DNA of 64,000 nt. Source: Desulfovibrio sp. ZJ369. Lineage in GTDB: Bacteria > Desulfobacterota > Desulfovibrionia > Desulfovibrionales > Desulfovibrionaceae. The DNA is taken from positions 1-64,000 of the forward strand of contig NZ_JAAKEI010000009.1 in NCBI RefSeq assembly GCF_011039085.1. The letters run 5' to 3'. The position numbers and the translations under genes were made by a program. Below are positions 36,617 through 64,000 of this stretch, in pieces. How positions within the stretch are numbered: the first letter of the stretch is position 1; each line of letters starts with the position of its first letter. Under the pieces are notes generated by a model. It saw only the letters and a list, made by a program, of their open reading frames with translations. It did no database searches and was not told the DNA's origin.

Positions 36617-36631
36617 GCGTGAGGCGATGAA

Positions 36632-39518: not shown

Positions 39519-39536
39519 GGGGCGGCTATGCGACTG

Positions 39537-40070: not shown

Positions 40071-40148
40071 ATTTTTTCTCCTTTTGAAAAATGTAGCCCA
40101 AATGTGCGCATTGTCAAGTATCACACAGCGTTGAATCGGAGGGCAGTC

Positions 40149-42205: not shown

Positions 42206-42254
42206 CGGGCGGGGGTGTGTCTGTTTTCACCTTCTCTATAAAGGAGCAATCATC

Positions 42255-42725
42255 GTGATACCCAAAACTCTGCTGATGCTGTCCTGTCTGGCGCTTGCCG
42301 CCTGCGCGCACAAAGCCGCGCCACCGGTTTCGCCTTCCGTCGATTTTGTAGCGGCTACCCTCGGCCAGGCTGCGGAACAGGCCCACAGCGAACTCGCCAT
42401 GCTTGCCCGGCTGCGCGGGGAGGGAATGCAGCCCTTGCTGCCGCCCACCGATCCTTCTCTGACGCAACCTGTCTCCATCGACTGGGCAGGCGAAGCGTCC
42501 GGGGCGCTCAAGGCCATCTGCCTGCACGTCGGCTACCGCTACCGGGAAACCGGCGCTCCCACGGCGCAAGCCATGCCCGTTGTGGTGCATGGTCTGAATC
42601 GTCCGGCGCATGAACTGCTGGAGGACATTGCCTGGCAGATTCAGCCGCAGGCTGTGCTGCGCGTCGATCCGGTCAATCGGGTGCTGACGCTGGCCAGAAC
42701 TTTCGGGCTGGAGGGAAGGTCATGA
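42255..42725 (+). CDS. DotD (TraH) outer-membrane lipoprotein
   Basis: A 156-residue lipoprotein with GTG start (AAGGAG 8 nt before) and lipobox LAAC near residue 16. The mature part has the DotD fold motifs (VSIDWAGEASGALKAICLHVGY, PVVVHGLNRPAHELLEDI, AVLRVDPVNRVLTLA), similar to the secretin N-domain. DotD helps place DotH in the outer membrane. It overlaps dotC by 4 nt. Confidence 0.8.
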   Translation: MIPKTLLMLSCLALAACAHKAAPPVSPSVDFVAATLGQAAEQAHSELAMLARLRGEGMQPLLPPTDPSLTQPVSIDWAGEASGALKAICLHVGYRYRETGAPTAQAMPVVVHGLNRPAHELLEDIAWQIQPQAVLRVDPVNRVLTLARTFGLEGRS

Positions 42726-45880: not shown

Positions 45881-46152
45881 TGCCCGGCGAAGTTCTCTGG
45901 CGCGACACCGCGCTCACGCCAAAAATCTTCATTCTGGACGCCCGCGCCGTCTTTCCTCTGGCTCTCTGGTTGTTCCATTGGGCCTGGTGGACAGCGGCCA
46001 TTGCCGTCGCGGCAATCCTCGTCCTTTACCTCGTGCAGCGCACCGGCATGACGCCGCTTGCCTGCTTTCGCGCCATCCGCGTGGCCTGCATGGGACGGCG
46101 GCGGGAAACAAGAAACAATGAAAGCCAGTGGCGCAAACGCTGCCGCTGGTGA
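45877..46152 (+). CDS. IcmT (TraK) small T4BSS protein
   Basis: A 91-residue protein, WRDTALTPKIFILDARAVFP then two hydrophobic helices (LALWLFHWAWWTAAIAVAAI, LVLYLV) and a short basic end (RRRETRNNESQWRKRCRW). This matches IcmT/TraK in length and N-terminal motif. It overlaps the PP-loop gene by 4 nt. Confidence 0.8.
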   Translation: MMPGEVLWRDTALTPKIFILDARAVFPLALWLFHWAWWTAAIAVAAILVLYLVQRTGMTPLACFRAIRVACMGRRRETRNNESQWRKRCRW

Positions 46153-46174
46153 CGAAAACCATTTGAGGTCAATT

Positions 46175-46390
46175 ATGCCCAACGAAATCATCAACAGCTA
46201 TGGCCTGTTCGACGCTCCCGTCCGTGCTCGCGAAAAAGAGCGCGTCACACTCACTCAGACGGACATTGAGCGCCAGCTTGAGGCGGGCGCGTTTCTCATG
46301 AGCCGCGAGGAAGCTATCGCCGCCGGATTTCTCAATCCCCTGGAAGAGCCGGATGCCGTCATTGTGGACATCGCGCGGGAGGAAGCATGA
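46175..46390 (+). CDS. Small hypothetical protein, 71 residues
   Basis: ATG 46175 has GAGG 6 nt before it, and the stop overlaps the next start by 4 nt. It is acidic and soluble (TLTQTDIERQLEAGAFLMSR). I do not recognise it. Position between icmT and the ArdC-like gene suggests a role in transfer or a small partner of ArdC, but nothing in the sequence shows which. Confidence 0.6.
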   Translation: MPNEIINSYGLFDAPVRAREKERVTLTQTDIERQLEAGAFLMSREEAIAAGFLNPLEEPDAVIVDIAREEA

Positions 46391-47778
46391 GCCAAACACA
46401 GCAAGAAGAAAGGAAAAGTCGTTTCCAGGTCAGCCGTGAGGTGCAGGAAGAGTTTGTCAACGGCATTGCCGAAACCATGCTTTCCCTCACCAGCCGGGCG
46501 GGCGGCGCGCCAAGGATCGCCGCCGCGCCGGCAGGAACGCCGTTTTGCCCGACAACCGGCAGGGAGTACGGCGGCCCCAACATGTTGCGCCTCATGCTGG
46601 CCGGGATGGAAAAGGGCTACGCTGACGACCGCTGGCTGACGTTCAAACAGGTGCGGCACTACCAGAGCGAGCACCCGAATCTGAAAGTGGGGATCAAAAA
46701 GGGAGAACACGGGATCAAGCTCCTGCGCCCCGAAGAAGTGTTCTTCACCATCGGGGAAGATGAAAAATGGACATTCCATTCCCAGGATGAGGCAAGAGCC
46801 ATTGAAGAGCAGCGCAAGCAGGGCGCAAAGCTCCCGCCTGTCCAGCACAAGACGCTGTTTTATCCCTTCACGGTGTTCAATGCGGAACAAATCTACGGAC
46901 TGCCTGCCAAAGAAAGAACGACTCCGGCGCTCACGGAACAGGAACGCAACGTGTTTCTGGAGAAATTCGTCGCCGATTCCGGCGTTGCCGTCGAACACCA
47001 CAAAGGCCCTGCTGCATACAGCCATGCCGAAGATGTGGTGAAGCTGCCGTTCCCGGACAGTTTCAAGAGTTCTGACGCCTATTACGCCGCCAAGCTGCGG
47101 GGCTTCTATGAGGCAACAGGTCACAGCTCGCGGGAGAATCGGCAAACGGAGCCGGAAACCCTCAAAAGCCGCGCTTTCGAGGAAATGCGGGCGGAAATGT
47201 TCACCCTGCTGGCCGGGGCAAAATTCAATCTGCCCATGCCCGAAAACAGCGCGTCCGCGCAAGTGGCCAACTGGAACCGGAAGTTTTCCGGCGGAGACGT
47301 GGCGGAGCTGTTCAGGGCTGCGACTGACGCGGCCAGGGCGCTGACTTCCATGCGTCAGTTCGAGGCAGGGGAAAAACCACGCGACTGGTGGTTCCCCAGG
47401 CCCGAAGCCTGGGCGGAGCTGGAAGCCATGCAGAAGCAGCGGGACGCGGCGGTCGGCGTCTCCCCGACACAGGCCGCGTCGTCCGAGGCTTCAGCACGGC
47501 GCGATCCGACTCTGGCCGAATCCGTCGCCGCGTTCGAGGCTGCGGACAATCCCGTCGCCAAGGCCCGCGCCATTCTCCAGAACCCCGACTTCCTGGACAT
47601 GGCGCTCAAACAGGACCCTCAGCATATCAGGGAGCTTGCCGACCTTTGCGGCCAGCTTTCCTTTGCCCTGAGCCATGAGGCCGAGGCCACTCAGGAACAG
47701 GCTCCTGCCGGAGCTGTCGAAAGTTCCATTCCGCTCACGGAACAGAAAAACGCGGCCAAACGCCGCATGAGGATATGA
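46387..47778 (+). CDS. ArdC-like antirestriction / ssDNA-binding protein
   Basis: A 463-residue protein. The N-terminal part matches the ArdC N-domain (DUF1738): REYGGPNMLRLMLAGMEKGY, DRWLTFKQVRHYQ and VGIKKGEHGIKLL. ArdC-type proteins bind single-stranded DNA and protect incoming strands in conjugation. The C-terminal third is Ala/Glu-rich with no named domain. It is followed directly by topB. Confidence 0.75.
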   Translation: MSQTQQEERKSRFQVSREVQEEFVNGIAETMLSLTSRAGGAPRIAAAPAGTPFCPTTGREYGGPNMLRLMLAGMEKGYADDRWLTFKQVRHYQSEHPNLKVGIKKGEHGIKLLRPEEVFFTIGEDEKWTFHSQDEARAIEEQRKQGAKLPPVQHKTLFYPFTVFNAEQIYGLPAKERTTPALTEQERNVFLEKFVADSGVAVEHHKGPAAYSHAEDVVKLPFPDSFKSSDAYYAAKLRGFYEATGHSSRENRQTEPETLKSRAFEEMRAEMFTLLAGAKFNLPMPENSASAQVANWNRKFSGGDVAELFRAATDAARALTSMRQFEAGEKPRDWWFPRPEAWAELEAMQKQRDAAVGVSPTQAASSEASARRDPTLAESVAAFEAADNPVAKARAILQNPDFLDMALKQDPQHIRELADLCGQLSFALSHEAEATQEQAPAGAVESSIPLTEQKNAAKRRMRI

Positions 47779-47779
47779 C

Positions 47780-49903
47780 ATGAGACTGTTTATTGCCGAA
47801 AAACCCTCCTTGGGCCGCGCCATTGCCGCTGGTCTTGGCAATCAGAAAAAAGCCGAAGGCTGCATCCGTTGCGGCGATGACGTGGTGACATGGTGTTTCG
47901 GGCACATGCTCGAACAGGCCTGGCCGCAGGATTACAAGCCTGAATACGCCCAATGGCGGCGTGAACACCTGCCCATCATTCCCGACCAATGGAAATACAA
48001 GGTCAAAAAGGACGCCGCCGCGCAGCTTAAAATCATCGGTTCCCTGCTGCGGGACGCCGATTCCGTGGTTCATGCGGGCGATCCCGATCGTGAAGGCCAG
48101 CTTCTTGTGGATGAGGTGCTGGAACACTTTCACTACAGGGGACGGGTGGAGCGTATCTGGCTGGCCTCACTGGACGATCTTTCGGTCAGGAAGGCGCTGG
48201 CAAACCTCACGGACAACGCCCGCTACGCGCCCTTGCGCGACGCCGCCCGCGCCCGAAGCCGCGCCGACTGGCTGGCGGGCATCAACGCCACCCGCGCCCT
48301 GACCATCAAGGGCCGCGCGGAAGGGCGCTCGGACGTGCTTTCCCTGGGCCGCGTCCAGACGCCCACTCTGGCGCTGGTGGTCGCGCGCGATCTGGAAATT
48401 TCCCATTTCAAGTCTGTGGATTATTTCGTTCTGCGGGCCTCGCTCGTTCACATCGCTGGAGACTTTGCCGTTACCTTCGCGCCCTCCGAGGATCTGGCCG
48501 GGCTGGATGCCTGCGGACGCCTGACTGATGCCTCCGTAGCCGAAGCCCTGGTTACAGCCCACACGAATACGGACGGCCTTGTAACAGAAGCCACGCGAGA
48601 GGCGAAAAGCAAGGCCGCGCCGTTGCCGCACAGTCTTTCCTCCCTGCAAAAAGCCGCTTCCGCCCAGCTCGGCATGTCGGCGCAACAGGTGCTGGATACC
48701 GCGCAAGCCCTGTACGAAAAAAAGCTGACCACCTATCCGCGCACCGATTGCCGTTATCTGCCGGAAGAACAGTTTGCGGATGCCGCCGCCGTGCTGGCCG
48801 CGCTTTCCTCGGTTCCCGGTCTGGAGCAGGTGGCGGGAACGGCGGACGCTTCCCTGAAAAGCGCCGCGTGGAACACCAAAAAGGTGACGGCGCACCACGC
48901 CATCGCGCCCACGGGCGAAATTCCGCCGGACTCGCTCCCGCAGAAGGAACGCGATCTCTACCTCATGATTGCCACGGCCTTTTATCTGCAATTCCACGCG
49001 CCCATGCGCTATGAGGCGCAAAAAGTCGCTGTCTCTCTTGCCGATACCCGCTGGGAGGGTACAGGACGGCGCATCCTTGATCCCGGTTGGACGGCCTTCA
49101 GCGGCCATGACGATGAAGACGGTGATTCCGAAGAACAGTCTCTGCCGCCGCTGGAAAAGGGCGATGCCGTTCACTGCCGCGACGTGCAGACCCTGAAGAA
49201 AAAGACTTCGCCGCCCTCCCGTTTCTCCGAAGGGACACTCATTGAGGCGATGGCCAATGTCCATCGCTTTGTGGCCGATGCCGACGCCAAAGCCGCGCTC
49301 AAGGACGCCAAGGGCATCGGCACCGAAGCCACCCGCGCCAGAGTTCTCGAAACCCTGAAAGAGCGAGGCTATCTCGTTGCCGACAAAAAAGCCCTTGTCT
49401 CCACGCCGCTCGGCAGGGAAGTCATTGCCCTCACCCCGCCCGCGCTCAAAGACCCCATCACCACGGCGGAATGGGAATCCCGCCTTGAGGCCATCGCTCA
49501 GGGCCAGGAAACGCTGGATGCCTTTCTGGCCGATCAGTGCAGGATTCTGCCGGACTTGCTTGCGCCCATTCTCGGCAACGGCAAGCCCGCCTTTCCCTGC
49601 CCGGCCTGCGGCGCGGCCCTGAACCGTCGCAAGCGCAAAAAGGACGGCGCGTGGTTCTGGGGCTGCACCGCCTGGCCCGACTGCAAGGTCATCCTGCCCG
49701 ACGACAAAGGCAAGCCCGGAAAGGCCAGAGCCAAGCCCGCGCTTTCCGAATACGCCTGCCCGGCCTGCGGCAAGCCGCTCGTCAAACGCTCCGGCGCGAA
49801 AGGCGAGTTCTACGGCTGCTCCGGCTATCCCGGATGCAAGAAAACCTGGCCCGTCGCTCCGGGCGGCGCTCCGGACTTTGAGGCGAAAAGTAAGAAGAAA
49901 TAA
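47780..49903 (+). CDS. topB: DNA topoisomerase III
   Basis: A 707-residue type IA topoisomerase. TOPRIM acidic residues are in HAGDPDREGQLLVDE near residue 95, and the catalytic Tyr is in LTTYPRTDCRYLP near residue 320. Two C-terminal Cys4 zinc ribbons (CPACGAALNRR..CTAWPDC and CPACGKPLVK..CSGYPGC) bind DNA. Conjugative elements carry TopB to separate DNA during transfer or replication. ATG at 47780; AGGA upstream, 1 nt after the previous stop. Confidence 0.9.
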   Translation: MRLFIAEKPSLGRAIAAGLGNQKKAEGCIRCGDDVVTWCFGHMLEQAWPQDYKPEYAQWRREHLPIIPDQWKYKVKKDAAAQLKIIGSLLRDADSVVHAGDPDREGQLLVDEVLEHFHYRGRVERIWLASLDDLSVRKALANLTDNARYAPLRDAARARSRADWLAGINATRALTIKGRAEGRSDVLSLGRVQTPTLALVVARDLEISHFKSVDYFVLRASLVHIAGDFAVTFAPSEDLAGLDACGRLTDASVAEALVTAHTNTDGLVTEATREAKSKAAPLPHSLSSLQKAASAQLGMSAQQVLDTAQALYEKKLTTYPRTDCRYLPEEQFADAAAVLAALSSVPGLEQVAGTADASLKSAAWNTKKVTAHHAIAPTGEIPPDSLPQKERDLYLMIATAFYLQFHAPMRYEAQKVAVSLADTRWEGTGRRILDPGWTAFSGHDDEDGDSEEQSLPPLEKGDAVHCRDVQTLKKKTSPPSRFSEGTLIEAMANVHRFVADADAKAALKDAKGIGTEATRARVLETLKERGYLVADKKALVSTPLGREVIALTPPALKDPITTAEWESRLEAIAQGQETLDAFLADQCRILPDLLAPILGNGKPAFPCPACGAALNRRKRKKDGAWFWGCTAWPDCKVILPDDKGKPGKARAKPALSEYACPACGKPLVKRSGAKGEFYGCSGYPGCKKTWPVAPGGAPDFEAKSKKK

Positions 49904-49914
49904 AGGGAGCCTGT

Positions 49915-49953
49915 GGGGAGGGAAACCCTTTTGCAAAAGGGGTCTCCCTCCCC
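49915..49953 (+). terminator. Long hairpin after topB
   Basis: GGGGAGGGA (49915-49923) pairs with TCCCTCCCC (49945-49953), with an inner CCCTTTT/AAAAGGG stem. The U-run after it is broken (CCTTTTCTAAAC), so it may be an attenuator, not a full stop. Confidence 0.6.
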
Positions 49954-49997
49954 GCGCCCTCCTTTTCTAAACTTTTATCAGTCAAGGACTGTGAAAG

Positions 49998-50414
49998 ATG
50001 AAATATATGGTGACATTTTTGCTGTGCATGGCTCTGGCCGCGCCGTGTTTTGCAGGCTCCTGTCAGGATATGCGGGAAGCCGTGGGCGGCGCGATTCAGG
50101 AGCGCAACGGCAGAGTTTCAGAGACGCATGACGTGCTCATGCCCGATCCGGAAACCGAGCGCGACGCGCTTTCCGGCTGTCTCGCTTCCATCAATGGCAT
50201 CGGGGACGCCTTCAGCCTTGGCGTGACGCTTCCCGGCATGGAGCAGATTGTCGCGGGCATCTGCAAGCAGGTGGATTCCTACATCCACCAGAAAATCAAC
50301 AACGCGCACAATCAGGTGCTGAATACCGTCAACGGCATCGGCGGCAACAATCCTTTTAAAGTTTACGGAACAAGCGGCGACTACATCCTCCATCTCAAGG
50401 GGAATCTCAAATGA
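49998..50414 (+). CDS. Secreted hypothetical protein, 138 residues
   Basis: A signal peptide (MKYMVTFLLCMALAAPCFAG) and a mature part with three cysteines (CQDM, GCLAS, GICKQ). No family recognised. Its position between topB and dotM, with a 4-nt overlap to the next gene, suggests a periplasmic part of the transfer apparatus. Confidence 0.6.
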   Translation: MKYMVTFLLCMALAAPCFAGSCQDMREAVGGAIQERNGRVSETHDVLMPDPETERDALSGCLASINGIGDAFSLGVTLPGMEQIVAGICKQVDSYIHQKINNAHNQVLNTVNGIGGNNPFKVYGTSGDYILHLKGNLK

Positions 50415-50659
50415 GGGCGGTCGGTCTCCTCTTGCTTGCCCTTTGTCTGATGCCGAGCCTTGCCCTGAGCGCACAACGCAGGAAAGTCGCGTTCCCGCCA
50501 CAGCATCCCTTGACGGCTGACTGCGTTCCGGACGCGGCCCGCGTCAGCGGGATGCCCGACGCCGTGCTGCGCGACGGGCGCTTCAGGGACAACCTGAACA
50601 AACTCCGGCAAGAGGGCCTTTCCATGCTGCCGTTACAAACCACGGAGACACGGCCATGA
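50411..50659 (+). CDS. Small secreted hypothetical protein, 82 residues
   Basis: A signal peptide (MRAVGLLLLALCLMPSLALS) followed by a 60-residue mature part with one Cys (LTADCVPDAARVSGMPDAVL). ATG overlaps the previous stop by 4 nt and its stop overlaps dotM by 4 nt. Function unknown. Confidence 0.55.
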   Translation: MRAVGLLLLALCLMPSLALSAQRRKVAFPPQHPLTADCVPDAARVSGMPDAVLRDGRFRDNLNKLRQEGLSMLPLQTTETRP

Positions 50660-52014
50660 ACCAGTCCGGCAACGGCGGGGAAGATCAGCGCCTGTTCTTG
50701 TGGTTCGCGTGCCTGATTATCGTTTTCTGCATTGTGCCGCTGCTGTACGCCGCGCATTCCAATGCCGTAAACGTCCCGCTTCTGAATCTGGCCAAAGCGC
50801 AGCTCAAGGCGTTCACGCTGTTTTTCGAGGAAGCGGAAATCGCTTTCGGACGCATTGACGCCGCCGATCCCGCCTCTTTGTCATGGGACACCATGCAAAA
50901 GGTGCTTCGCTACACCGGCTCATGGATTCGCTGGCCGTTTCTTCTGCTGCTTGTTCTGTTCGGCGTGGCCTCCATCTTCATGGGCCGCGTGGGAGGTCTT
51001 GTCCGGCGCTTCAACATGGAAAGTCTGCTGAAAAACAATGCGGAGTCCTTTCCCTGTCTGCGGCCTGTGGTGGGGCGCGGCAAGTATCTGCTCTCGCCAA
51101 AATCCTATGATTCCGGCTTGTGGCGAATCGCCCGGACGCCCGTCCAGTTCGCGCTGGAACACGGACTGCTGCTTGATGAACAGGGTGAGCCGTTCACGCC
51201 GGAACAGGCCCTGAAAAACGGCTTGCCGTCCACGGCGCTTCCCGCCTGGGGACACGCCCGGCTGGATGAAGCAAAGGCTCTCGCCGTGCTGCGAGAACAA
51301 CTCGGCAAACGATTTGAAGGATTCGAGGGCCTGTCGCCCTGCCGCCGCGCCCTGGCTGCCGCCTTTCTGGCCTATGCGGGCGGGAACAAGAAGGGCTGCA
51401 TCGCTTTGCTGGATGCCGTTTCTCTTTCCTACGCCGAGAATCATGAGCAGGCGTCCTGTCCTTTGCTGGAAGAAGGCCGCTTTGTCAGCAAGCTGAAAAA
51501 AGAATGGGGCTGTCACTCCTCCCTGCTGACCGAGAAGTGTCTCAGCATCCATGCCGCCTATGAGCTGCCCTGGTTCATGGCCCTGCTGTATCGGGCGCGG
51601 CAAAAAGGCGTACTGGCCACGTCGCAGTTCCTCTGGCTCCGGCCGCTGGATCGACCGCTCTGGTATGCCCTCAATCAGTGCGGCGGACGCGCGGCATGGG
51701 CCGAAGCCTCCGCGCCGTGGGCGCAGTATCTGGCGGAGGAGAAAGCCGGAATGCTTCTGGCTGAACCGCATATTCAGCCTGCCGTTGTCAGTCTCAAGCA
51801 AGCTCTGGCCGATCAGGGCTGGCTGACCGAAATCTTTGTGCCGCCCACGCCGGAAACGATGCCGGTTCCGCCCACTGAACCCGCCGGAACTTCGACTCTG
51901 GATACCGAATTTTCTTCCGTGGAACCGCCGCCGGAAGTGGTTCTGGCTGAAGCGGAAGACGATCCCGAATACGACGCCAACGAAGATGAAAAGTTGGCTG
52001 ACGAATACTTTTAG
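50656..52014 (+). CDS. DotM/IcmP (TrbA) coupling-complex protein
   Basis: A 452-residue protein with two N-terminal TM helices (LFLWFACLIIVFCIVPLLYA; WPFLLLLVLFGVASIFM) and a soluble cytoplasmic domain (ESFPCLRPVVGRGKYLLSPK, WRIARTPVQFALEHGLL). The C-terminal 60 residues are Pro/Glu-rich. In Dot/Icm it joins DotL in the type IV coupling complex that selects substrates. dotL follows 11 nt later. Confidence 0.85.
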   Translation: MNQSGNGGEDQRLFLWFACLIIVFCIVPLLYAAHSNAVNVPLLNLAKAQLKAFTLFFEEAEIAFGRIDAADPASLSWDTMQKVLRYTGSWIRWPFLLLLVLFGVASIFMGRVGGLVRRFNMESLLKNNAESFPCLRPVVGRGKYLLSPKSYDSGLWRIARTPVQFALEHGLLLDEQGEPFTPEQALKNGLPSTALPAWGHARLDEAKALAVLREQLGKRFEGFEGLSPCRRALAAAFLAYAGGNKKGCIALLDAVSLSYAENHEQASCPLLEEGRFVSKLKKEWGCHSSLLTEKCLSIHAAYELPWFMALLYRARQKGVLATSQFLWLRPLDRPLWYALNQCGGRAAWAEASAPWAQYLAEEKAGMLLAEPHIQPAVVSLKQALADQGWLTEIFVPPTPETMPVPPTEPAGTSTLDTEFSSVEPPPEVVLAEAEDDPEYDANEDEKLADEYF

Positions 52015-52025: not shown

Positions 52026-53801
52026 ATGAACAGAACCATCAGAGGTCTGGAAGACCATGAAACGCAGGAACGAAAGCGCCTGCACCGGGACGTGCGCTCC
52101 CCCGCGCAGCGCCTCGCGGATTCTCTCAAACTCGGTCAGGTGCAGACCGGCGGAATTTTTGCGGCGGGGGCGTGTCTGTTTCTTTTTCCGGCCTGCGCCA
52201 CACCACTGTTTTGTCTTGGTCTGGCGTTCTTTCTCGCCCGTTGCGCCTGTGTGAACAGGGAACGCCTGCCGTTTCGGATGCCGCTGGGATTGTACGGCAC
52301 GGACAGGGGCGATCCGCTCCCTGGCAGACGCGGTTTTGCCAGGCCGGAAGGCATCTTTTTCCTCGGCAATCGGCTTCAGGACGGGAAGGAACTCTGGCTG
52401 AAAGCCAAGGATATTCTGACCCACTGCCTGCTTTTCGGCACAACCGGCTCAGGCAAGACGGAGACGCTGGTTTCCCTTTCCTACAATGCCCTGGCAACGG
52501 CATCCGGGCTGTTCTACATCGACCCCAAAGCCAGCCCCAAGCTGGCGGTGCAGATATGGCAGATGGCCCGTTTCCTTGGCCGGGACGATGATTTTCGTGT
52601 GCTGAACTACGGCACTTCCGGCAAGGTCAAGGGCAAGTCTCCGCGCCGTCTTTCCAACACGAACAATCCATTCACGTTCGGCTCGGCGGAAGCCCTGACA
52701 CAGCTTCTTGTTTCCCTCATGCCAGCATCGGACGGGGCCAATTCCATCTTTGCCGACAAGGCGCAGGCTCTGATTTCCGGCGTCATGTATGCCCTGGTTG
52801 ACCTGCGGGACAAGGGGCTGCTCAAGCTCTCCACATCGATCATCCGTGATTCCCTGGCCCTGGAAAAATGCGTGGCTCTGGCCCTGCATCCCGAACTGGA
52901 TCAGGAATCCCGCGCCTCCATCCAGGCGGCGCTTGCCACCTCCGGCTGGATTGCCGGGCGCGACCTGAAAGACCAGCCGGAATCCTTCGCGGAGCAGTTC
53001 GGCTATGCGCAATCCTACTTCGGCAAGGCCCTTTCCAGCCTGACGGATACCTACAGCCACATCTACGGCGCGGAAGACGGGGAAGTGGATTTCGCGGATG
53101 CCATCATGCAGCGACGCATCCTCGTGGTTTTATTGCCTTCTTTGGAAAAAGCTCCCGCTGAACTCGCCAGTCTCGGCAAAATCAGCCTTTCCGCCATCCG
53201 CAACGCCTGCGCCGTTGGCCTTGGCGCGAATATCGAAGGCGACGCCGCTGATGTGCTGGAGGCCCTTCCGACTGACGCCACAGGCATCGGGCCGTATCTG
53301 TGCATCGTGGATGAATACGCGGCCATTGTTACGCCGGGCTTTGAAGTCGTGCTGACACAGGGGCGCGGCCTGGGCATTGCCGCCATTGTGGCTTCACAGG
53401 ATTACGCCGGTATTCTGGAAGCTGACCAGAAAGGCGCGCAACAGATGGTGGCAAACACCTCTTTGAAAGTCTTCATGAAAATGCAGGACGCTGAGAAGAC
53501 ATGGGAATTATTGCGCGGGCAGGCAGGGCAAAGCACTGTCCTTCGCACCACAGGCTTCAACGTCAATGAACAAATCAGTTCCGACTACCGCGACGCCAAT
53601 TCCACCACAGTGGAGCAGGAAGACCGCGTTGTCCTGCGCGACTTGCAGGAACAGATAGAGGGCGAGGCCCATTTTGTCTTTTCCGGCCAGATCGTCCGGG
53701 GCGATATGTTCTATGCCAATCCCTCACTCAAAAAGGCGCAACTGAGAGTGCCGCAGTTGTTGCAACTCAGTCAGGAGGCGGTAATCCATGAAGCTGCATA
53801 G
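52026..53801 (+). CDS. DotL/IcmO (TrbC) type IV coupling protein
   Basis: A 591-residue ATPase with two N-terminal TM helices around residues 38-72 and an ATPase domain. Walker A is LLFGTTGSGKTETLVSL near residue 138 and Walker B is LCIVDEYAAI near 427. It would bring the relaxase-DNA complex to the T4SS channel. It is shorter than Legionella DotL (no long C-terminal adaptor-binding tail), like TrbC. The stop is 22 nt before the convergent HigA gene. Confidence 0.88.
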   Translation: MNRTIRGLEDHETQERKRLHRDVRSPAQRLADSLKLGQVQTGGIFAAGACLFLFPACATPLFCLGLAFFLARCACVNRERLPFRMPLGLYGTDRGDPLPGRRGFARPEGIFFLGNRLQDGKELWLKAKDILTHCLLFGTTGSGKTETLVSLSYNALATASGLFYIDPKASPKLAVQIWQMARFLGRDDDFRVLNYGTSGKVKGKSPRRLSNTNNPFTFGSAEALTQLLVSLMPASDGANSIFADKAQALISGVMYALVDLRDKGLLKLSTSIIRDSLALEKCVALALHPELDQESRASIQAALATSGWIAGRDLKDQPESFAEQFGYAQSYFGKALSSLTDTYSHIYGAEDGEVDFADAIMQRRILVVLLPSLEKAPAELASLGKISLSAIRNACAVGLGANIEGDAADVLEALPTDATGIGPYLCIVDEYAAIVTPGFEVVLTQGRGLGIAAIVASQDYAGILEADQKGAQQMVANTSLKVFMKMQDAEKTWELLRGQAGQSTVLRTTGFNVNEQISSDYRDANSTTVEQEDRVVLRDLQEQIEGEAHFVFSGQIVRGDMFYANPSLKKAQLRVPQLLQLSQEAVIHEAA

Positions 53802-55696: not shown

Positions 55697-58600
55697 ATGG
55701 CCAGACGGCGCAAGCAGGCAAACGATCCTCGCCAGTTGTCGCTCTTCGATGTAATGGCGACGCAGATCGAGGAAATACGGGCGGAAAACATCCAGGACGA
55801 CATGCGGGAGGAAGCCGTTTCCCCCGCACAGGCTGAACAGGCGCAACCGGCTTCCGTTGTGCCGGAGCCGGAACAGCATCAGGGCTTTTCCTTTCCGACA
55901 AACGACAAGCCGGAAAGAACGCTCCTCGGCGTCAACGGCAACGGCGAATCCGTGTATGAAATGCGCGACGGCTCGCGCATGTACAGCCGCAATCCTAAAA
56001 TCATGCAGGTCATGGACGGCGACAAACGGACGCCCGAAAAGCTGTTTGAGGCCGGCGATGACGACTATCTGACCGTACAGGAAATCCACCATTTCACCCA
56101 TACCCTTCCCTGGGAGGTGCAACATGCTCGACAGATCAACCTGTCCCCTCGAAATCGCAAGAAAGGTTCTCAAGCCCGAAACAATCAACGACGTGCGCAG
56201 CGGGGGCTACACGCCCCTGGGCTACTCGATTTTGGATCGATGGGCACTGAACAGCCCCGACGAACTGAGGATGCTGGAAGCGAAGGGGAGCCTGGCCTTC
56301 GACCTGAAACTGTACGGTCAGCAACAGACGGAAGCACAGGCGTTGAGCAGCGAGACGGCCCGGCAGGCGAGCCTGCGGGGGATGTCCGATTGGGAGATAT
56401 TGGAGAGCATGGGCATCGACATGAGCCTGAAAATTACCAAATAACTCCTGAAGACCGGCTGGGCGTTGGCGGTGCGAAAACCAAATATGCGGATAATATC
56501 GCCGCCATACGCCTGCTCAAACAGCTTCAGGCCAATGGCGCGAAGCTGGCCACGCCGGAAGAACAGAAAATTCTTGTCCGCTATGTGGGCTGGGGCGGGC
56601 TGCCGCAGGTCTTTGACGCTAAAAATGAGCAATGGGCCGCTGAATACCGGGAATTGCAGGGCCTGCTTTCCCCGGACGACTATGCGGCCGCCCGCCGTTC
56701 CACGCAGGATGCCCACTACACTTCGGAAACGGTCATTCGGGGCATATATGAGGGACTTTCCCGGCTTGGCCTCGGCACGGGTGAATCTCTCCGCATCCTA
56801 GAGCCTTCAGCGGGCATCGGCCACTTCATCGGTCTCTGCCCCAAACATTTCAGTGCCCTCTTTTTAGCGGTGGAGCAGGATCCCACGACTTCAGCCATCG
56901 CTCAATACCTTTATCCCCAAGAAGTACATCTTAACACCGGTTTCCAGAACAGTCGGCTTCGTCACGCTGGCATAGACGCCGTGGTCGGCAATCCTCCCTT
57001 CGGCAAGCAGTCGCTGTACGATCCTGATTTCCCCGAACTGCGGAAATTCTCCATCCACAACTATTTCCTGGCCAAGTCCATCAGCCTGATGCGGGAAGGC
57101 GGCATCGCGGCCTTTGTGGTCAGCCGCTATTTTCTGGACGCCGCCGATTCCTCGGCGCGTGAGCATATTGCGGGCCAGGCCGATCTTCTCGGCGCTATCC
57201 GCCTGCCGGAAACAGCCTTTCGCCAGAACGCGCTCACCGATGTCACGACCGACATCGTGTTTTTCCAGCGGCATAATGGCGAAAACAAGCGAAGCAGGGA
57301 TTGGATCACGACGGGTTCGGAGGTTGTGGACGACCTCAAAAACGGTGGTTCGCGCCAGGCCGTGATCAACAGCTATTTCCTCCAGAATCCCGGCCAGATG
57401 ATCGGCAGAATGGTCTTTGACGGCGGCATGTACGAGGGCGCGCTGTCCTGTATCACCGACACGCCACTGGAACTCGGCCCGGAAATCGCCAAACGTCTGG
57501 ACGCGCTTCCTGCGGACTGCTTCGTGCCGCGAGAGGAAAGCCCGCAAAACACGGAAGTCCGGGTACGCAACGCCGACTTCATCCGCAGCCCGTATTTCCA
57601 GGCGCTGAAGCCCGGCGCGTTGTGCGTTGAGCCGCAAAGCCGGAAGATTGCCTTCAAAGTCGCCTCCGCCTTTGCTGAAAGCGATTACGATCTGCTGCCG
57701 GTCAAAAACGAAACCGCCCGGTTGCGTCTGGCGGGCATGATTCAGATTCGGGACACGTTGCGCGAATTGCTCAATGAGGAAAAGAGCGACGGCGACGGAA
57801 GTAAAATGACGGTTCTGCGTGGCCGTCTCAACAGTCAGTATGACGCTTTCGTCAAAAAGTACGGCCACCTCAATTCCCAGACCAATCGCGGCCTGATGCG
57901 GGACGACCCCGAACACAGCCTGCTGGAATCACTCGAGGCCGACTACGACAAGGGCCTGTCGCCGGAAACGGCCCGCAAGCATGGCGGAACCGCCCGTCCC
58001 GCCTCGGCCAAAAAGGCCGCCATTTTCCGGCAGCGGGTGCTCAAGCCCGCGCAGGTGGCGGAAACAGCGGAAAACGCCAGAGACGCCCTGCTCATTGCCC
58101 TGCGGGAAAACGGCAGGGTGGATTTCAGCCGCATGGCGCAGCTTCTGCATCGTCCGGCGGAGGACATTCAGACGGAATTGCGCGACCAGGGGCAGATTTT
58201 CCTGAATCCCGCCACTGAGGAGTGGGAAATCCGCGACAGATACCTGACCGGCAATGTCCGGGCCAAACTGCATCGGGCGCAGGCCGCGGCGGAATCCGAT
58301 CCCCGCTTCGCTCCCAATGTGGAAGCGTTGGCTGCCGTCATGCCGCCGGATATTGAGGCTGTGGACATCGGCATCAAATTCGGATCGGCCTGGGTTCCGG
58401 CGCAGGTCATCTCGGATTTTGTGGAGCATCTGCACGGCGGCAAGGGGATGCAGGAGATCACCTGGCTGCCCACGCTCGGACGCTGGCTGGCGAAAGTGGA
58501 TATCCGGGACATGGCCATAAACGACAATGTGTGGGGCATCCCCGAATATCCGGCGGAAAAGATTCTTGAATCCTTGCTCATCAATCGCCCCATCAAGGTT

Positions 58601-59881
58601 GAGAAGGAAAGCGGCAGTTATGATGAAAACGGAAAGCCCATTATGGTCATTGATCAGGAACTGACCGCCGCCGCCATGCAAAAGGCCGATGAAATCAAAC
58701 AGGCGTTTCTGGATTGGGTATGGACGGACGATGAACGGCGCGACATGCTCAGCAAACTTTACAACGAACGCTTCAATACCAACGTGCCGCCGCAGTATGA
58801 CGGATCGCATCTTGAGCTGGTCAACGCATCCGAGGCGGTCAAACTGCGTCCGCACCAGAAAAATGCGGTGTGGCGGGCAATTCAGGAGGGAACTTGTCTG
58901 TTCGACCACGTTGTGGGCGCGGGAAAGACGCTGGCCTGTGTGGCCACGGTCATGGAATCCAAACGCATGGGCTTTCTTTCCAAGCCCATGATTGTTGTCC
59001 CCAACCATTTGCTGCACCAGTGGCGCGATGAATTTTACAAATTGTATCCAGACGCCAACATTCTCGTTGCGGACAAGACGGATTTTACCAAACAGAACAG
59101 GCAGCGGCTCTTTGCCAAAATCGCCACAGGTGATTGGGATGCCGTCATTGTGGCGCATTCATCCTTTCGCAAGATCGATATGCCGCGTGATGTGCAGGAG
59201 GAAATTCTTCAGGAACAGATCAACATGGTTATAGACGCCATTGCGGCCGCAAAAGAGGCGGCGGGCGGACGGGCCACCATCAAGCAACTGGAAAAACAGC
59301 GGGAGAAAATGGAAACCCGCTACCAGGAACTGGTTGCCTCGGCAGGCAAGAAAGATGAGAATGTGGACTTTTCGGACTTGGGCGTGGATGCGCTCTTTGT
59401 GGATGAAAGCCATGAGTTCAAGAATCTGGCCTTTCAGACCACGATGAACGTCTCCGGCCTGGGTAATGTCACAGGTTCCGCCAAGGCGCTCGACCTGTTC
59501 ATCAAGTGCCGCTATCTGCAACGCAAAAATGATGGACGTGGCCTGTACTTCATGACCGGAACGCCTATCAGCAATACCATTGCTGAAGTCTATACTCTGC
59601 AACGCTATATGCAGTATGAGGAGCTGAAAAACAAGGATATTGAATTTTTTGACGCCTGGGCTTCCACGTTCGGGCAAGTCACCAACGGCTGGGAGTTGGA
59701 CGCTACGGGGGTCAACTACAAACTCTCATTTCACGTCCAAATAGATCTATTTAGACTTATAATATCTTATATTTCAATATATTATCTAAAATCATTCATC
59801 CAGAGAAGTCCAGGAAAAGCGCCTTGCATCCCGCTGTTTTCCGGGTATTATTCAGGGTATCCATACCAATCGGTATTCTGA
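55697..59881 (+). pseudogene. Methylase-helicase (DarB-like) gene, 3' part lost
   Basis: A 1394-codon frame that is real up to about 59,715. Order: N-terminal region (LSLFDVMATQIEEIRAE), a low-complexity stretch (codons 145-250), N6-methylase motifs (LEPSAGIGHFIG; VVGNPPFGKQS near codon 432), then an SNF2/DEAD helicase domain with Walker A DHVVGAGKTLACVAT (about 1073), LFVDESHEFKN (about 1233) and MTGTPISNTIAEVY (about 1288). The frame then passes NGWELDATGVNYKL and runs into AT-rich residues without the second helicase domain. Similar large proteins in conjugative elements and phage P1 (DarB) protect from restriction. It was cut by the integrase module or by a deletion. Confidence 0.8.
56124..56444 (+). 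CDS. Overprinted 106-residue ORF inside the helicase gene
   Basis: A frame +1 ORF inside the N-terminal low-complexity part of the helicase frame. It has GGGAGG 6 nt before the ATG and its protein is ordinary in composition (LEIARKVLKPETINDVRSGG, LGYSILDRWALNSPDELRML, SDWEILESMGIDM), and its third codon positions are mostly G or C, as in neighbouring genes, while the helicase frame there reads Arg/Gly/Glu-rich linker. So both frames may be used. Function unknown. Confidence 0.6.
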   Translation: MLDRSTCPLEIARKVLKPETINDVRSGGYTPLGYSILDRWALNSPDELRMLEAKGSLAFDLKLYGQQQTEAQALSSETARQASLRGMSDWEILESMGIDMSLKITK

Positions 59882-59989
59882 AATATTCTCATATAATTTA
59901 TTGAGAATACTACAAATATTTTTATTTGTGGGTATCGGATACCATAGGATTCATGGGGACTTACGGGTATCCCTGACACGGAGAAAACC
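59716..59989. repeat. AT-rich junction with five GGTAT repeats
   Basis: A leader of the integrase pair. GGTAT occurs at 59844, 59856, 59872, 59931 and 59966; two are paired as dyads, GGTAT-CC-ATACC (59856-59867) and GGTATC-G-GATACC (59931-59943). A separate inverted repeat TATTCTCA (59884-59891)/TGAGAATA (59902-59909) lies between them. These could be integrase arm sites, or an operator for an excision regulator such as the AlpA-like protein. The helicase similarity ends at its left edge. Confidence 0.65.
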
Positions 59990-61189
59990 ATGCTGGATGA
60001 TCGCTTTATTCAAGGCTTGAAAGCCGCCGACAAGCCGAAAAAGTACGCGGACGGCGGCGGGCTGTTCCTGTTCATTCCGGCCAGCGGCAAAAAGCTCTGG
60101 CGACTGGCGTACCGTTTTGACCGAAAGGCCAAGCTCCTTTCCTTCGGTGAATATCCCCAGGTGTCGCTCCGCGCCGCACGGCAACGCCGGGATGAAGCCA
60201 AGGAGGTGCTCAAGGACGGCATTGACCCGGCGGAACACAGGAAGGCCGCGCGGGCATCGACCGACACAGCCACCTTTCAAAGCGTGGCTATGGAATGGTA
60301 CGAGCGGGAAACCCTTCACTGTAGAAGCCGCTATCGCGCCTTCATGATGCGGGGGATGACGGAATATTTCTTTCCGGCCTTCGGCGGAAAGGTCATGACA
60401 GACATTGCCGCCGAAGACATTATGAGCGCCATTGAACCGTTGCGGCAATCCGGGAAATTGCGCGGAGGCCGCAGACTGACGGATGTCTGCGGCCAGATAT
60501 GCCGCTATGCCGTCGCCACAGGCAAGGCCGCGCGGGACGCCACGGAAGAACTGCCCATGTCGCTGCGTTCCAGACAAACAGGACACAGAGCCGCCGCGCT
60601 CGACGCCGGGAAACTCGGCCAGATTATGCTCAACCTTGAGCGGCATGACGGCTATTTCCCCGTCAAATGCGCTCTGCGGCTGGTTCCCTTGCTGTTTGTC
60701 CGTTCCGGCGAATTACGCTGCGCGGCATGGAGCGAATTTGATTTCTCCCGCAGGCTCTGGATCATCCCCGCGCAACGCATGGCGGCGAAACATGAGCATG
60801 TTGTGCCTCTCGCGCCGCAGGTAGTCAACATTCTCAGGGAATTGAAGGCATACTCCGGTCATGGAACCTTGCTGTTCCCCGGCGTTCGCATACCTGAACG
60901 TCCCATCGACATATCTACCATCACCGTTTCCCTGCGCAGACGCGGATATGACGGCATAAAGCTGTCCTTTGACGGAATCCGCTCTCTTGTTGCCAAACTG
61001 TTGCCCGATCTTGGGTACGAACAGAACATCATCGACATACAGTTGGCGCGCTCCGGCCGCACACGTTTTGATCCGTGGCAGTATCTGCCGGAAAGAAAAA
61101 CCATGATGCGGGAATGGGCCGGGTATCTTTTTCTCCTGCGAGACAAGGCGTTGCGGGAGACATCCCGTCAGGGAGGTACGTCATGCTGA
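59990..61189 (+). CDS. P4-type integrase paralogue lacking catalytic residues
   Basis: A 399-residue protein aligned over its whole length with the next gene (DUF4102 N-domain PKKYADGGGLFLFI, then a tyrosine recombinase domain). The first catalytic Arg remains (LFVRSGELR). But HGFR of the active form is DGIR here, the LAH box is LAR, and the segment that contains the catalytic Tyr (AYNHAQYLP) is shortened to RFDPWQYLP, so Tyr appears to be lost. It should be inactive in strand cutting. It overlaps the active integrase start by 7 nt. It may be a structural partner, as with accessory recombinases in multi-integrase elements. Confidence 0.8.
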   Translation: MLDDRFIQGLKAADKPKKYADGGGLFLFIPASGKKLWRLAYRFDRKAKLLSFGEYPQVSLRAARQRRDEAKEVLKDGIDPAEHRKAARASTDTATFQSVAMEWYERETLHCRSRYRAFMMRGMTEYFFPAFGGKVMTDIAAEDIMSAIEPLRQSGKLRGGRRLTDVCGQICRYAVATGKAARDATEELPMSLRSRQTGHRAAALDAGKLGQIMLNLERHDGYFPVKCALRLVPLLFVRSGELRCAAWSEFDFSRRLWIIPAQRMAAKHEHVVPLAPQVVNILRELKAYSGHGTLLFPGVRIPERPIDISTITVSLRRRGYDGIKLSFDGIRSLVAKLLPDLGYEQNIIDIQLARSGRTRFDPWQYLPERKTMMREWAGYLFLLRDKALRETSRQGGTSC

Positions 61190-62388
61190 CCGACACGCAA
61201 ATCAGGAATCTGAAGCCCGCTGAAAAAGCGAAAAAATACGCGGACGGCGGCGGTCTGTACCTCTATGTCGCCAGGACCGGCTCAAAGCTCTGGCGCATGG
61301 CGTACCGCTTCAATGACAAGGAAAAGCTGCTCAGTTTCGGGGAATATCCGATTGTCTCTTTGAAGGATGCCCGGACAAAACGGAATGAGGCCAAAAAGCT
61401 GCTTGCCGACGGTATTGATCCGGGCAGGCACAAGAAAGAGATGAAGAACGCCGCCCTTCTCGCGGAAGCCAATACTTTCGAGCATGTTGTCCTTGAATGG
61501 CATGAAACGCAGACCGTCCACAATTCCGAAAAAGACAGGGAAAGAAAACTATACACATTCAGACACTATCTTTTCCCCGCGTTGAAACGGAAGCCCATTT
61601 CCGAGGTCACGGCGCAAGACCTGCTGCTGATACTCAAGCCCCTTGAAAAACAGGGACAGGAGCTTGTCGCCCACAGAATCATCCAGTATTGCGGCATGGT
61701 TTTCCGCTACGCCGTGGCCACAGGCAGAGTGACGCGCAACATTGCCGTCGACCTTCGCGGAGCCATACGTCCGCATCAGGGCAGGCACAGGGCCACCATC
61801 GTTTCCAATGAAAAAATCGGCGTGCTTCTGAACAGGTTGGACAACTATCCCGGCCATTTCCAGGTTAAGTGCGCGTTGCGTCTTTTCCCTCTGCTCTTTG
61901 TCCGTTCCGTCGAACTTGCCCGCGCCGAATGGCGCGAGTTCAATTTTGAAGCACGGGAATGGCACATACCTGGCGAGCGTATGAAAATGCGAAAACCGCA
62001 CATCGTCCCGTTGTCATCACAGGCGATTGCCATTCTCAAGGAGCTTCACGCCGTTACCGGGGGCGGAACCTATCTTTTCCCCTCAAGAAACAGCGTGAGG
62101 AAGCCTATTCACTATTCCACTCCGTTACAGGCATTGCGCGCCCTGGGATACGGCAAGGAGGAAATGTGTATTCATGGCTTCCGGTCTATGGCCTCGACCC
62201 TGCTCAATGAACAGGGCTTTGATCCGGACTGGATAGAACGGCAACTGGCTCACAAGGAAAAGGATACCTCCCGTATCGCCTACAACCATGCCCAATATCT
62301 TCCCCAGCGGCATCGCATGATGCAGGCATGGGCTGACTTTTTGGACGGCTTGCGCGAAGAGGCACAGCAGGACAATGAAGTGTCATAA
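61183..62388 (+). CDS. P4-type tyrosine integrase, complete
   Basis: A 401-residue integrase. N-terminal DUF4102 domain (LTDTQIRNLKPAEKAKKYAD), then the recombinase domain with catalytic residues: Arg in LFVRSVELA, Lys in RMKMRKPHIVPL, HGFRSMAST (His, Arg), LAHKEKD (His) and AYNHAQYLP (Tyr). GGGAGG lies 6 nt before ATG 61183. It would integrate and excise an island or plasmid-like element. Located next to the AT-rich 62389-62664 and the AlpA-like gene. Confidence 0.93.
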   Translation: MLTDTQIRNLKPAEKAKKYADGGGLYLYVARTGSKLWRMAYRFNDKEKLLSFGEYPIVSLKDARTKRNEAKKLLADGIDPGRHKKEMKNAALLAEANTFEHVVLEWHETQTVHNSEKDRERKLYTFRHYLFPALKRKPISEVTAQDLLLILKPLEKQGQELVAHRIIQYCGMVFRYAVATGRVTRNIAVDLRGAIRPHQGRHRATIVSNEKIGVLLNRLDNYPGHFQVKCALRLFPLLFVRSVELARAEWREFNFEAREWHIPGERMKMRKPHIVPLSSQAIAILKELHAVTGGGTYLFPSRNSVRKPIHYSTPLQALRALGYGKEEMCIHGFRSMASTLLNEQGFDPDWIERQLAHKEKDTSRIAYNHAQYLPQRHRMMQAWADFLDGLREEAQQDNEVS

Positions 62389-62664: not shown

Positions 62665-62868
62665 ATGCAAAATATACCCAGTAACGCTCTGCTTCGTCTG
62701 CCGCAGGTACTTGCGCTCATCCCCGTCAGCCGTAGCGCATGGTGGGCGGGCTGCAAGAGCGGTCGGTATCCGAAACCCGTCAAACTCGGTCCGCGCACAA
62801 CGGCGTGGAGAGCGGCGGATATTGCCGCGCTTCTGGAAAAGCTCACTGTCGATCCGGAGGAAAAATGA
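62665..62868 (+). CDS. AlpA-family transcriptional regulator / excisionase-like
   Basis: A 67-residue protein with a MerR-like winged HTH (LLRLPQVLALIPVSRSAWWA, KSGRYPKPVKLGPRTTAW). AlpA proteins control integrase and excision in phage-like elements. An AGGAG is 7 nt before the ATG. Its stop overlaps the next frame as ATGA. Confidence 0.88.
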   Translation: MQNIPSNALLRLPQVLALIPVSRSAWWAGCKSGRYPKPVKLGPRTTAWRAADIAALLEKLTVDPEEK

Positions 62869-63590
62869 ATCCCGTTTTTCCCCCGGCTCTCCGTCCGTCA
62901 CTCCCGCAGGAGTGCCGGAAGCGTGCATCCGGTCAAGGCCGTGCCCGGTCGGGCCGCTTCGCGGGCCTTGACCAAACGCCCTTGCTTTCCGGCTATGGAT
63001 GCTTGCGGGCGACGGACGAGGAAGCCTCCGGCGGGGGCTCGGTCAAAGGAAACTCGCAAGCCAGAAGCATAAAGACAACGACACGAAAAAGCGTTTCCCG
63101 CCTCCCACGGCTCTCCCCCATACCGGCACGCGGCGGGCGCGATACCTGCAAGCCCGTCCCGGCTTACTCTCCTCAGAATCTTCCCGATACATACGGCGTT
63201 GCCTCCCGCCCGACGTTCAAATGCCCGCGCCGTCATGTGCATCATGCTGACCATGTTGTGAGCCGGATACTGATTGAGCGGCTTGTGCATGGCGTTCAGT
63301 CTTTCGCCGCATACCGCCTTCTTACGAGCCGGATGTTTATCTGGAGCCGTCGCTATACCCGCCAGCGACACACCGGATACGACTGCGCTTCACGCCCGAT
63401 ACGCACTCGCCGCATTCCTGATGCCCGCACCATGCGTCTTTGTTTTTGCGCGGATGCCTGTTCATTTGTCCGTCATTGTCTCCGAGGGCCAGCTTACGTT
63501 TCGTCTATACGCTGCGCGTATAGCCTCACGGCTGGCGAGGGGCAAAGCCCCTTCGAACCCCAAAAGGCAAAAAGGCAGGAAAGGCAATGA
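62865..63590 (+). CDS. Uncertain ORF between AlpA and MobC, probably mostly oriT region
   Basis: The frame has ATGA overlaps with the AlpA gene on the left and mobC on the right, and GGAGG before the ATG, which fits an operon. But the 241-residue product is Arg/Ser/Cys-rich with no usual protein pattern (QGRARSGRFAGL, RLPRLSPIPARGGRD). A minus-strand frame (62898-63371) is also open and looks somewhat more protein-like. I think the sequence may mainly be a transfer origin region. Confidence 0.35.
   Translation: MNPVFPPALRPSLPQECRKRASGQGRARSGRFAGLDQTPLLSGYGCLRATDEEASGGGSVKGNSQARSIKTTTRKSVSRLPRLSPIPARGGRDTCKPVPAYSPQNLPDTYGVASRPTFKCPRRHVHHADHVVSRILIERLVHGVQSFAAYRLLTSRMFIWSRRYTRQRHTGYDCASRPIRTRRIPDARTMRLCFCADACSFVRHCLRGPAYVSSIRCAYSLTAGEGQSPFEPQKAKRQERQ
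63484..63523. other. Candidate origin of transfer (oriT)
   Basis: A perfect 8-bp inverted repeat CTATACGC (63505-63512) / GCGTATAG (63516-63523) is 7 nt from GAGGGCCAGCTTAC (63484-63497). On the minus strand this reads inverted repeat then GTAAGCTGGCCCTC, similar in layout to oriT sites of IncQ-type plasmids; on the plus strand CCAG/CTTA is like ColE1-type nic sites. It lies 63 nt before mobC. Confidence 0.5.
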
Positions 63591-63937
63591 GGCGCGTCAA
63601 GCCCGTGCGCAACGCCGCTGTCATCGTGCGCGTGTTCCCGGAGGAGCGCGACATCCTCCGCTTCAACGCGGGAGTGCATGGCATGAGCATGTCGGAGTAC
63701 ATCCGCCAGACCTGCCTTGGCATCCGCCTGCGAAAAACGCCGGAAGAGAAACGGCGGTTGCGGGAACTGGCCCGCATCGGCGCGAACATCAACCAGCTCG
63801 CGAGATGGGCCAACACCTATAAGCGGGCAACGGAAGCCGTGGAGGTATTGACGGCGCTGGCAGGCATCGAACGGCGCATCGCCGAGTTCGCATCATGCGC
63901 TTCAGCGGAAAATGAACCGGAGGCCGGGCCATGCTGA
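63587..63937 (+). CDS. MobC-family relaxosome accessory protein
   Basis: A 116-residue protein. The N-terminal VIVRVFPEERDILRFNAGVH and SEYIRQTCLG form a ribbon-helix-helix, and ELARIGANINQLARWANTYK is the MobC signature. It helps open the nic region for the relaxase. It overlaps the relaxase by 7 nt (ATGCTGA). Confidence 0.9.
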   Translation: MRRVKPVRNAAVIVRVFPEERDILRFNAGVHGMSMSEYIRQTCLGIRLRKTPEEKRRLRELARIGANINQLARWANTYKRATEAVEVLTALAGIERRIAEFASCASAENEPEAGPC

Positions 63938-64000
63938 TGAAAGTTTTTCCGCACGGCACAGGAGAAGGCGACAAGCCCAGCCGCTATCTTGTGTGCCCGG
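63931..64000 (+). CDS. Relaxase, N-terminal fragment (runs off the window)
   Basis: Only the first 23 codons: MLMKVFPHGTGEGDKPSRYL and a few more. The pattern (K-F/V-hydrophobic-P-H-G-T-G) is typical of small mobilization relaxases of the MOBP/HEN-like kind. GGAGG is 7 nt before ATG 63931. The rest is past the right end. Confidence 0.6.
   Translation, partial: MLMKVFPHGTGEGDKPSRYLVCP

Follow-up and report, generated by a model that had tools for sequence, protein, structure and literature searches.

A catalytically dead P4-type integrase kept by selection beside an intact partner in a putative mobilizable element of Desulfovibrio

Two overlapping integrase genes

Integrases of the P4 type are widespread in genomic islands, and each is as a rule regarded as a system of one protein. 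The subject of this account is a pair of them, encoded by the adjacent genes int1 and int2 near the end of a 64,000-nucleotide stretch of the genome of Desulfovibrio sp. ZJ369 (contig NZ_JAAKEI010000009.1, positions 1 to 64,000 of the forward strand; hereafter the window). The coordinates of these and other features are collected in Table 1. int2 starts with an ATG at 61183, so that its first 7 nucleotides are also the last 7 of int1; ribosome-binding sequences can be picked out by eye before both genes, ggag at 59980-59983 for int1 and, inside int1, gggagg at 61171-61176 for int2. The original prediction, made from the letters of the window, took the two for overlapping P4-type integrases that align end to end, and this is borne out: Int1 and Int2 are 43% identical in an end-to-end alignment, and Pfam finds the same three domains in each (arm, PF13356; core-binding, PF22022; catalytic, PF00589), all above their gathering scores, with Int1 barely past the cut-off for the catalytic domain (29.5 against 27.1 bits). 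Domain by domain, the identity is 64% for the arm, 32% for the core-binding and 42% for the catalytic part.

The two proteins part company at the active site. When both are aligned with 31 other P4 integrases, Int2 displays the complete set R K H R H Y (R241, K268, H331, R334, H357 and Y367), as had been predicted, and Int1 has R A D R R F in the same six columns: the two arginines, R238 and R331, are kept, A265, D328 and F360 take the places of Lys, His and Tyr, and R354 that of the second His. The retained first Arg and the Asp for His (DGIR where HGFR is expected) had been noticed beforehand, and Asp is found in all five of the Int1 orthologues described below. The loss of Lys (RMAAK where Int2 has RMKMR) emerged additionally from the alignment; the column assigned to the catalytic Lys follows from that alignment and from the lambda/XerD pattern, which presumably holds for P4 integrases. 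A shortened box without the catalytic Tyr had also been claimed for Int1, and it can now be made precise: counted from the column of the second His to that of the Tyr, Int1 is four residues shorter, and it has Phe in the Tyr column. The LAR for LAH that was reported with it is present in the window's own copy but is not a fixed trait, the second His position being Arg in two orthologues and His in three. Since Ala, Asp, Phe and both arginines are common to all five, and the full set is intact in 30 of the 31 other integrases (the remaining one, L036, is unreadable at one of the six positions), the losses in Int1 are not due to chance. Of the marks of the P4-type family, the three-domain architecture is thus found in both proteins and the catalytic set in Int2, not in Int1; judged by sequence, Int1 is a member of the family by descent and not an active integrase.

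The predicted structure of Int1 comprises the three domains and a long C-terminal helix (mean predicted local distance difference test score, 81.8; predicted template-modelling score, 0.49, with 0.53 for the second model), and its nearest solved structures are complexes of lambda integrase with DNA (template-modelling scores of about 0.4) and P4-type arm domains. Because the models were built on shallow alignments (16 rows) and the scores against whole integrases are of that order, they support the presence of the domains and nothing finer.

Distribution of the pair and selection on int1

The window's own genome (G000) is one of 288 genomes of the family, 39 of which have a match to Int1 at an E-value of 1e-90 or better. 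Full-length, stop-free copies of the Int1 type are found in five, the own genome (source of the query) and four relatives designated G096, G098, G177 and G178, whose proteins are 89-91% identical to it; the next-best score drops from 819 to 405 bits. Copies of Int2 that are 91-92% identical occur in the same five genomes, and the next one is 61% identical. The overlap of the two genes is 7 nucleotides in every case and no copy of int1 carries a frameshift or a stop, so the search for the same dead/live pair in other Desulfovibrionaceae, which the original prediction had proposed, has a positive answer. The five genomes fall into two genus codes, g1 and g32. Among 348 genomes of the order, five have the Int1 type; in an even sample of 395 genomes of the phylum, it is present in the own genome and G098 only. 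All of these counts come from overlapping genome sets, with no more than 4 to 6 candidates scored in each genome and with strict E-values, so that more distant dead/live pairs may have been missed. A scan of viral contigs with Int1 found no relative, and a scan of them with a mixed alignment returned 27 loci of ordinary similarity, none above 40% identity to Int1; among the plasmid matches listed the best stands at 38.5%.

A gene whose product has lost its catalytic residues could be a duplicate on its way out, with decay still to come. The ratio of nonsynonymous to synonymous substitution rates (dN/dS), estimated by the Nei-Gojobori method over the 10 pairs of the five copies, lies between 0.154 and 0.234 for int1 (mean 0.189) and between 0.074 and 0.162 for int2 (mean 0.128), with 0.137-0.211 for the relaxase gene of the same element and 0.091-0.155 for its parA. 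Constraint on int1 is accordingly about that on the relaxase gene and slightly below that on int2, and it extends to the dead catalytic domain, whose nonsynonymous/synonymous ratio is 0.18, against 0.14 for the live one. In 1000 runs of a neutral simulation without insertions and deletions, int1 was never stop-free at 0.25 changes per site, at which it had accumulated 8.1 stops on average; it was stop-free in 1% of runs at 0.13 and in 7.1% at 0.065 changes per site. That int1 is kept under strong purifying selection is well supported, as had been claimed from its intact frame.

What speaks for a dying duplicate is, besides the missing catalytic residues, the variable second His position, the slightly higher dN/dS of int1, the presence of broken pieces of P4 integrases in the same genome and the long stem of Int1 in a quick tree (1.67 changes per column, 0.58 for Int2). 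The tips beyond that stem are short, so that fast change was followed by constraint, which looks like a change of function; the tree, with its long branches, does not settle the exact sister group of Int1. Against decay stand the open frames of all five copies, the identical three dead residues in each, a dN/dS as low as that of the relaxase gene and far from 1, and the stops that neutrality would have brought. Close relatives with a catalytic first gene were also looked for, and all five copies found are without the catalytic residues. The dying duplicate is therefore rejected, and we regard it as scarcely credible. A recent tandem duplication of int2 is likewise rejected, the two proteins being only 43% identical and Int1 standing on its long stem.

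An element nested in a conjugative host

Upstream of the pair an open frame breaks off that encodes the first part of a large methylase/SNF2-type helicase. The intact homologue in contig G178:C44 is a protein of 2242 amino acids with Eco57I/N6-methylase, SNF2 and helicase C-terminal domains (Pfam), and the insertion point corresponds approximately to its residue 1371, between the SNF2 and the helicase C-terminal domains. All five pair-bearing elements start at the same host codons, with an 11-bp attL core GT(C/G/A)AACTACAA, and in all five the remainder of the host gene resumes after the same core at attR. Both ends lie on one contig in G098, G096 and G177, giving elements of about 17.2, 14.2 and 17.2 kb; they are on separate contigs in the own genome (attR in G000:C46, at L073:7455) and in G178 (C78). 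The target gene is uninterrupted in G098:C16, G108, G053, G089 and G178:C44, where the sequence across the site is GTGAACTACAAG or a variant of it.

Common to the five elements are int1, int2, alpA, a relaxase gene and parA. The precise ends with direct repeats and the empty site in relatives are joined by an integrase, alpA, MobC/NikA and relaxase genes and a ParA-like gene; a comparison of 18 cargo and hypothetical proteins of the three one-contig elements with Pfam, in which a few small or similar frames were left out, found no conjugation family. On this gene content the element can be classed as an integrative mobilizable element (IME). Its host would be a conjugative element, since the interrupted gene stands after genes of a type IVB-type conjugation system in the window. 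Between the intact coupling-protein gene of that region and the interrupted helicase gene, the minus strand carries a small gene pair (53823-54528), one member with a helix-turn-helix domain and the other without a Pfam match, which by eye resembles a HigB/HigA toxin-antitoxin system.

Table 1. Features of the window (position 1 is its first nucleotide; aa, amino acids)
Feature	Position	Strand	Remarks
Host type IVB-type conjugation genes, among others	34105..52011	+	TraO/DotG-like, DotI/IcmL, DotA/TraY, TraI, DotB/TraJ ATPase, topoisomerase III, DotM
Host TrbC/TraG-D-like coupling-protein gene, intact	52026..53798	+	
Interrupted methylase/SNF2-type helicase gene, 5' part	55697..59721	+	open frame runs into element to 59881
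attL core GTCAACTACAA, element left end	59711..59721	+	
Arm-type-like repeat pair GGGTAT-N6-GGGTAT	59843..59860	+	
Two GGGTATC motifs (59930, 59965) between arm sites and int1	59930..59970	+	candidate operator or third arm site
int1, catalytically dead P4-type integrase	59990..61189	+	399 aa
int2, P4-type integrase with full catalytic set	61183..62388	+	401 aa
alpA-like gene (PF05930)	62665..62868	+	probable excisionase or regulator
Mobilization accessory gene (NikA-like PF21983, MobC PF05713)	63587..63937	+	
Relaxase gene, start (MobA/VirD2 nuclease domain, MbeA-like)	63931..64000	+	continues past window (L040:5931-7145)

Behind the shared genes the content varies, being mostly type I restriction-modification in G098, G096 and G177 and a type ISP enzyme in the own element. 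The latter, beyond the window and in opposite orientation (L040:11448-16247), is a restriction-modification protein of 1599 amino acids by Pfam. Among pieces of the type I system, the G177 element carries a gene with elongation-factor-G-type domains (L044:6992-8923) that by eye resembles a ribosomal-protection tetracycline-resistance gene. A second, small recombinase gene stands beside the type I specificity genes in G098 (L042:10402-11328, a match to Pfam Phage_integrase) and G177 (L044:11255-12181), and is possibly a switch of those genes.

Relatives with a single integrase

Int1, Int2 and the single integrases of three further elements, in G177:C7, G054 and G106, form one clade in the quick tree (98% support in the Shimodaira-Hasegawa-like approximate likelihood-ratio test). 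The G177:C7 element (L098, approximately 137-10931) has one live P4 integrase, 60-61% identical to Int2, and alpA, and it sits in the same SNF2/methylase gene as the pair, inserted some 330 codons farther downstream. The G054 element (L100, G054:C8) interrupts a gene related to TrbC/TraD coupling proteins and shares the backbone of the pair elements: alpA, relaxase (64% identical) and parA (81% over 114 residues). The gene interrupted in G106 (L101, G106:C145) has the same start as that in G054, and the window's gene 52026-53798 is, judged by its start, the intact version of it. A more distant single P4 integrase is found in the own genome (L046, G000:C28, 15876-17902), followed by an AlpA 97% identical to that of the element under study, and this looks like a swap of integrase modules before the same backbone, although the contig ends soon after. 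The own genome has 22 matches to Int1 in all, some of them fragments, and several of its P4 integrases lie, by eye, behind the 3' ends of tRNA genes, as if it held many P4-type islands.

Repeats at the element ends and the question of a regulator

Repeat pairs like the arm-type-like pair before int1 stand at both ends of the pair elements, the left ends having been scanned in the own genome and G098; on the right they are found some 80 bp in from the end in the own genome, G098 and G177, and partly in G178. They are absent from the right end in G096, where an IS200-like transposase gene (L043:4293-4718) is nearby, and that copy may no longer be able to excise. The single-integrase element of G177:C7 likewise has GGGTAT-N6-GGGTAT, slightly changed, at its left and right ends. 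The scan of the ends found no extra arm sites for Int1.

The two further GGGTATC motifs, at 59930 and 59965, raise the possibility that Int1 is a transcriptional regulator, a recombinase turned repressor that would act on these motifs and set integrase levels in the manner of MrpR. Their position between the arm sites and int1 suits such a role, as do the place of int1 as the first gene of the pair and its kept arm domain, and MrpR is described as a repressor of tyrosine-recombinase fold without recombinase activity (PMC10516654). The pattern of loss is nearly the reverse in the two proteins, however: MrpR, according to the same account, keeps Lys and Tyr and has lost the first Arg and His. 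Moreover, binding to arm sites would not by itself need core-binding and catalytic domains, yet the catalytic domain of Int1 is under the constraint given above; the element already has an AlpA-type gene; and such motifs precede the integrase gene of the single-integrase element G177:C7 as well. A regulatory role for Int1 is in our judgement unlikely.

Movement of the pair between hosts

The pair does not share the history of the gene in which it sits. Identity over 1200 nucleotides of host gene before the insertion was compared with that of int1 and int2: between the own genome and G177, the host sequences are 75.3% identical, int1 90.8% and int2 90.0%; the corresponding figures are 75.2, 93.7 and 96.2% for G098 and G177, 83.8, 95.4 and 92.5% for G096 and G177, and 87.9, 91.6 and 90.5% for the own genome and G098. 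For G177 and G178 the difference goes the opposite way, with host genes 98.3% identical, int1 95.6% and int2 95.4%, and the filled host gene of G177 is 99.7% identical to the empty one of G053. Since these similarities disagree, the pair moves independently of its hosts, and since they do so in both directions, the element has been inserted here repeatedly, and each copy found carries the dead gene. On these comparisons the catalytic loss in Int1 is compatible with mobility.

They bear on another possibility, that Int1 is a dominant-negative brake, entering Int2 tetramers or blocking arm sites, lowering excision and so keeping the element in its host. The predicted fold and the arm domain are kept without catalysis, as a brake would require, and the gene overlap would fix its ratio to Int2. 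The element travelled between diverged hosts, and Int1 is aboard all five copies found, which is hardly what a brake would produce, and for a poison subunit that fills the same half-sites as Int2 a core-binding domain diverged to 32% identity is unexpected. We think this quite improbable.

A proposed two-subunit integrase

We incline, by a little, to the interpretation that int1 and int2 form a two-subunit integrase module of an IME targeting the methylase/SNF2-helicase gene, and that Int1 is its non-catalytic subunit. Int2 would then perform all DNA cutting and rejoining, as expected of its single-integrase relatives. Int1 retains what binding to arm sites and clamping of DNA phosphates should need, though not what cutting needs; it would bind the arm-type repeats through its conserved arm domain and probably occupy a core or target half-site by way of its diverged core-binding domain and retained arginines, as a member of the integration/excision complex that most likely recognises or holds this target site. 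With their overlapping frames, the genes would yield Int1 and Int2 in a fixed ratio. Two arrangements can be envisaged: either Int1 sits on core half-sites, so that Int2 would carry out one strand exchange and replication or a host resolvase would take care of the other, or Int1 lies outside the core and Int2 fills all four half-sites, as it presumably does in the single-integrase relatives. The original prediction had proposed that Int1 serves as a partner that does not cut, holding DNA, for example, or a heteromeric synapse, and this is partly supported, fitting the predicted whole fold, the kept arm domain and arginines and the published precedents to be discussed. A further step, which we put forward tentatively and would not yet call probable, is that in this heteromeric P4-type integrase the dead paralogue became an obligatory target-recognition or architectural subunit and gave the element a new insertion point within the SNF2 gene, its one-integrase sisters using others.

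Several considerations tell against these proposals. The sister elements get by with a single live integrase, and elements of this kind can therefore in general do without Int1; and because the dead/live pair is one lineage, its link with the target amounts to a single evolutionary association. The repeats are alike in the pair elements and in G177:C7, so no site specific to Int1 has been found, and the GGGTAT motifs before int1 suit a regulator equally well. The dN/dS of int1 is somewhat above that of int2. Part of the disagreement between host genes and pair, finally, could be due to homologous recombination between host elements.

Known systems and significance

Recombinase-like proteins without catalysis are already known as partners or relatives of active systems, and what appears to be new here is the P4-type dead/live pair; in the open-licence literature, as far as the sources drawn on extend, no such pair of full-length P4-type paralogues was found. 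One close parallel is Tfp of the strand-biased circularizing elements (SEs), which is encoded between two integrase genes in the operon intA-tfp-intB-srap and has the tyrosine-recombinase fold without the catalytic motif (PMC10214605). The overlaps in that operon suggest translational coupling, and its authors suppose that Tfp binds DNA without processing it; a tfp deletion was unobtainable, so that the need for Tfp was left untested by them (PMC10214605). Int1 and Tfp thus have in common a catalysis-less recombinase fold in an operon of overlapping integrase genes. By the same description, SEs differ in having two live integrases and Srap, where here one live and one dead integrase are followed by alpA, and Tfp is known as recombinase-like by fold prediction only (PMC10214605), whereas Int1 is an end-to-end paralogue of Int2, of the P4 family and with an arm domain.

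GinC of the GInts is the third integrase-like protein of its operon and is without the first Arg (PMC5385486), or, according to PMC10214605, lacks the catalytic motif entirely; excision and integration are reported to require each of the four gin genes (PMC5385486). It resembles Int1 as a catalysis-poor integrase-like protein in an integrase operon, and differs in its defect and in its company, the four-gene ginABCD arrangement with two further integrases and GinD (PMC5385486) as against two adjacent genes and then alpA. TnsF of Tn6022 is an inactivated tyrosine recombinase that selects the conserved gene comM as target (PMC10293859), and so is, like the Int1 proposed here, a dead recombinase tied to one target gene. 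It works with a Tn7-type transposase and is described as having N-terminal zinc fingers and as binding TniQ (PMC10293859); Int1 carries an arm domain and is paired with a live integrase from the same family, and the integrase domains are all that Pfam finds in it, no zinc finger. MrpR of phage SP-beta has, like Int1, kept the tyrosine-recombinase fold and lost recombinase function, surviving as a DNA-binding protein, but it is a phage-wide repressor and, in the portions of PMC10516654 drawn on here, is not described as a member of an integrase pair. In MTnPi of Prevotella intermedia, a mobilizable element, two adjacent tyrosine recombinases are both suspected of being needed, but they share no significant similarity with one another, and the account used here reports no loss of catalytic residues (PMC4755523).

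The choice of target also has its counterpart. IMEs and integrative and conjugative elements of Firmicutes insert into, and disrupt, snf2 genes of conjugative elements, and IMEs also insert into genes of VirD4 coupling proteins (PMC5704250, PMC12942858). The nested element described there uses triple serine integrases (PMC12942858), and gene-disrupting IMEs are treated mainly under serine recombinases in the review as consulted (PMC5704250), whereas the integrases here are P4-type tyrosine recombinases of Desulfovibrionaceae, one of them dead. As in Firmicutes, the elements described here would form a mobilizable family whose members disrupt genes belonging to conjugative elements. With a dead subunit under selection, natural relatives that have a single integrase and a defined att site, they would make it testable whether duplication and silencing of an integrase can bring the gain of a new target or of a new control.

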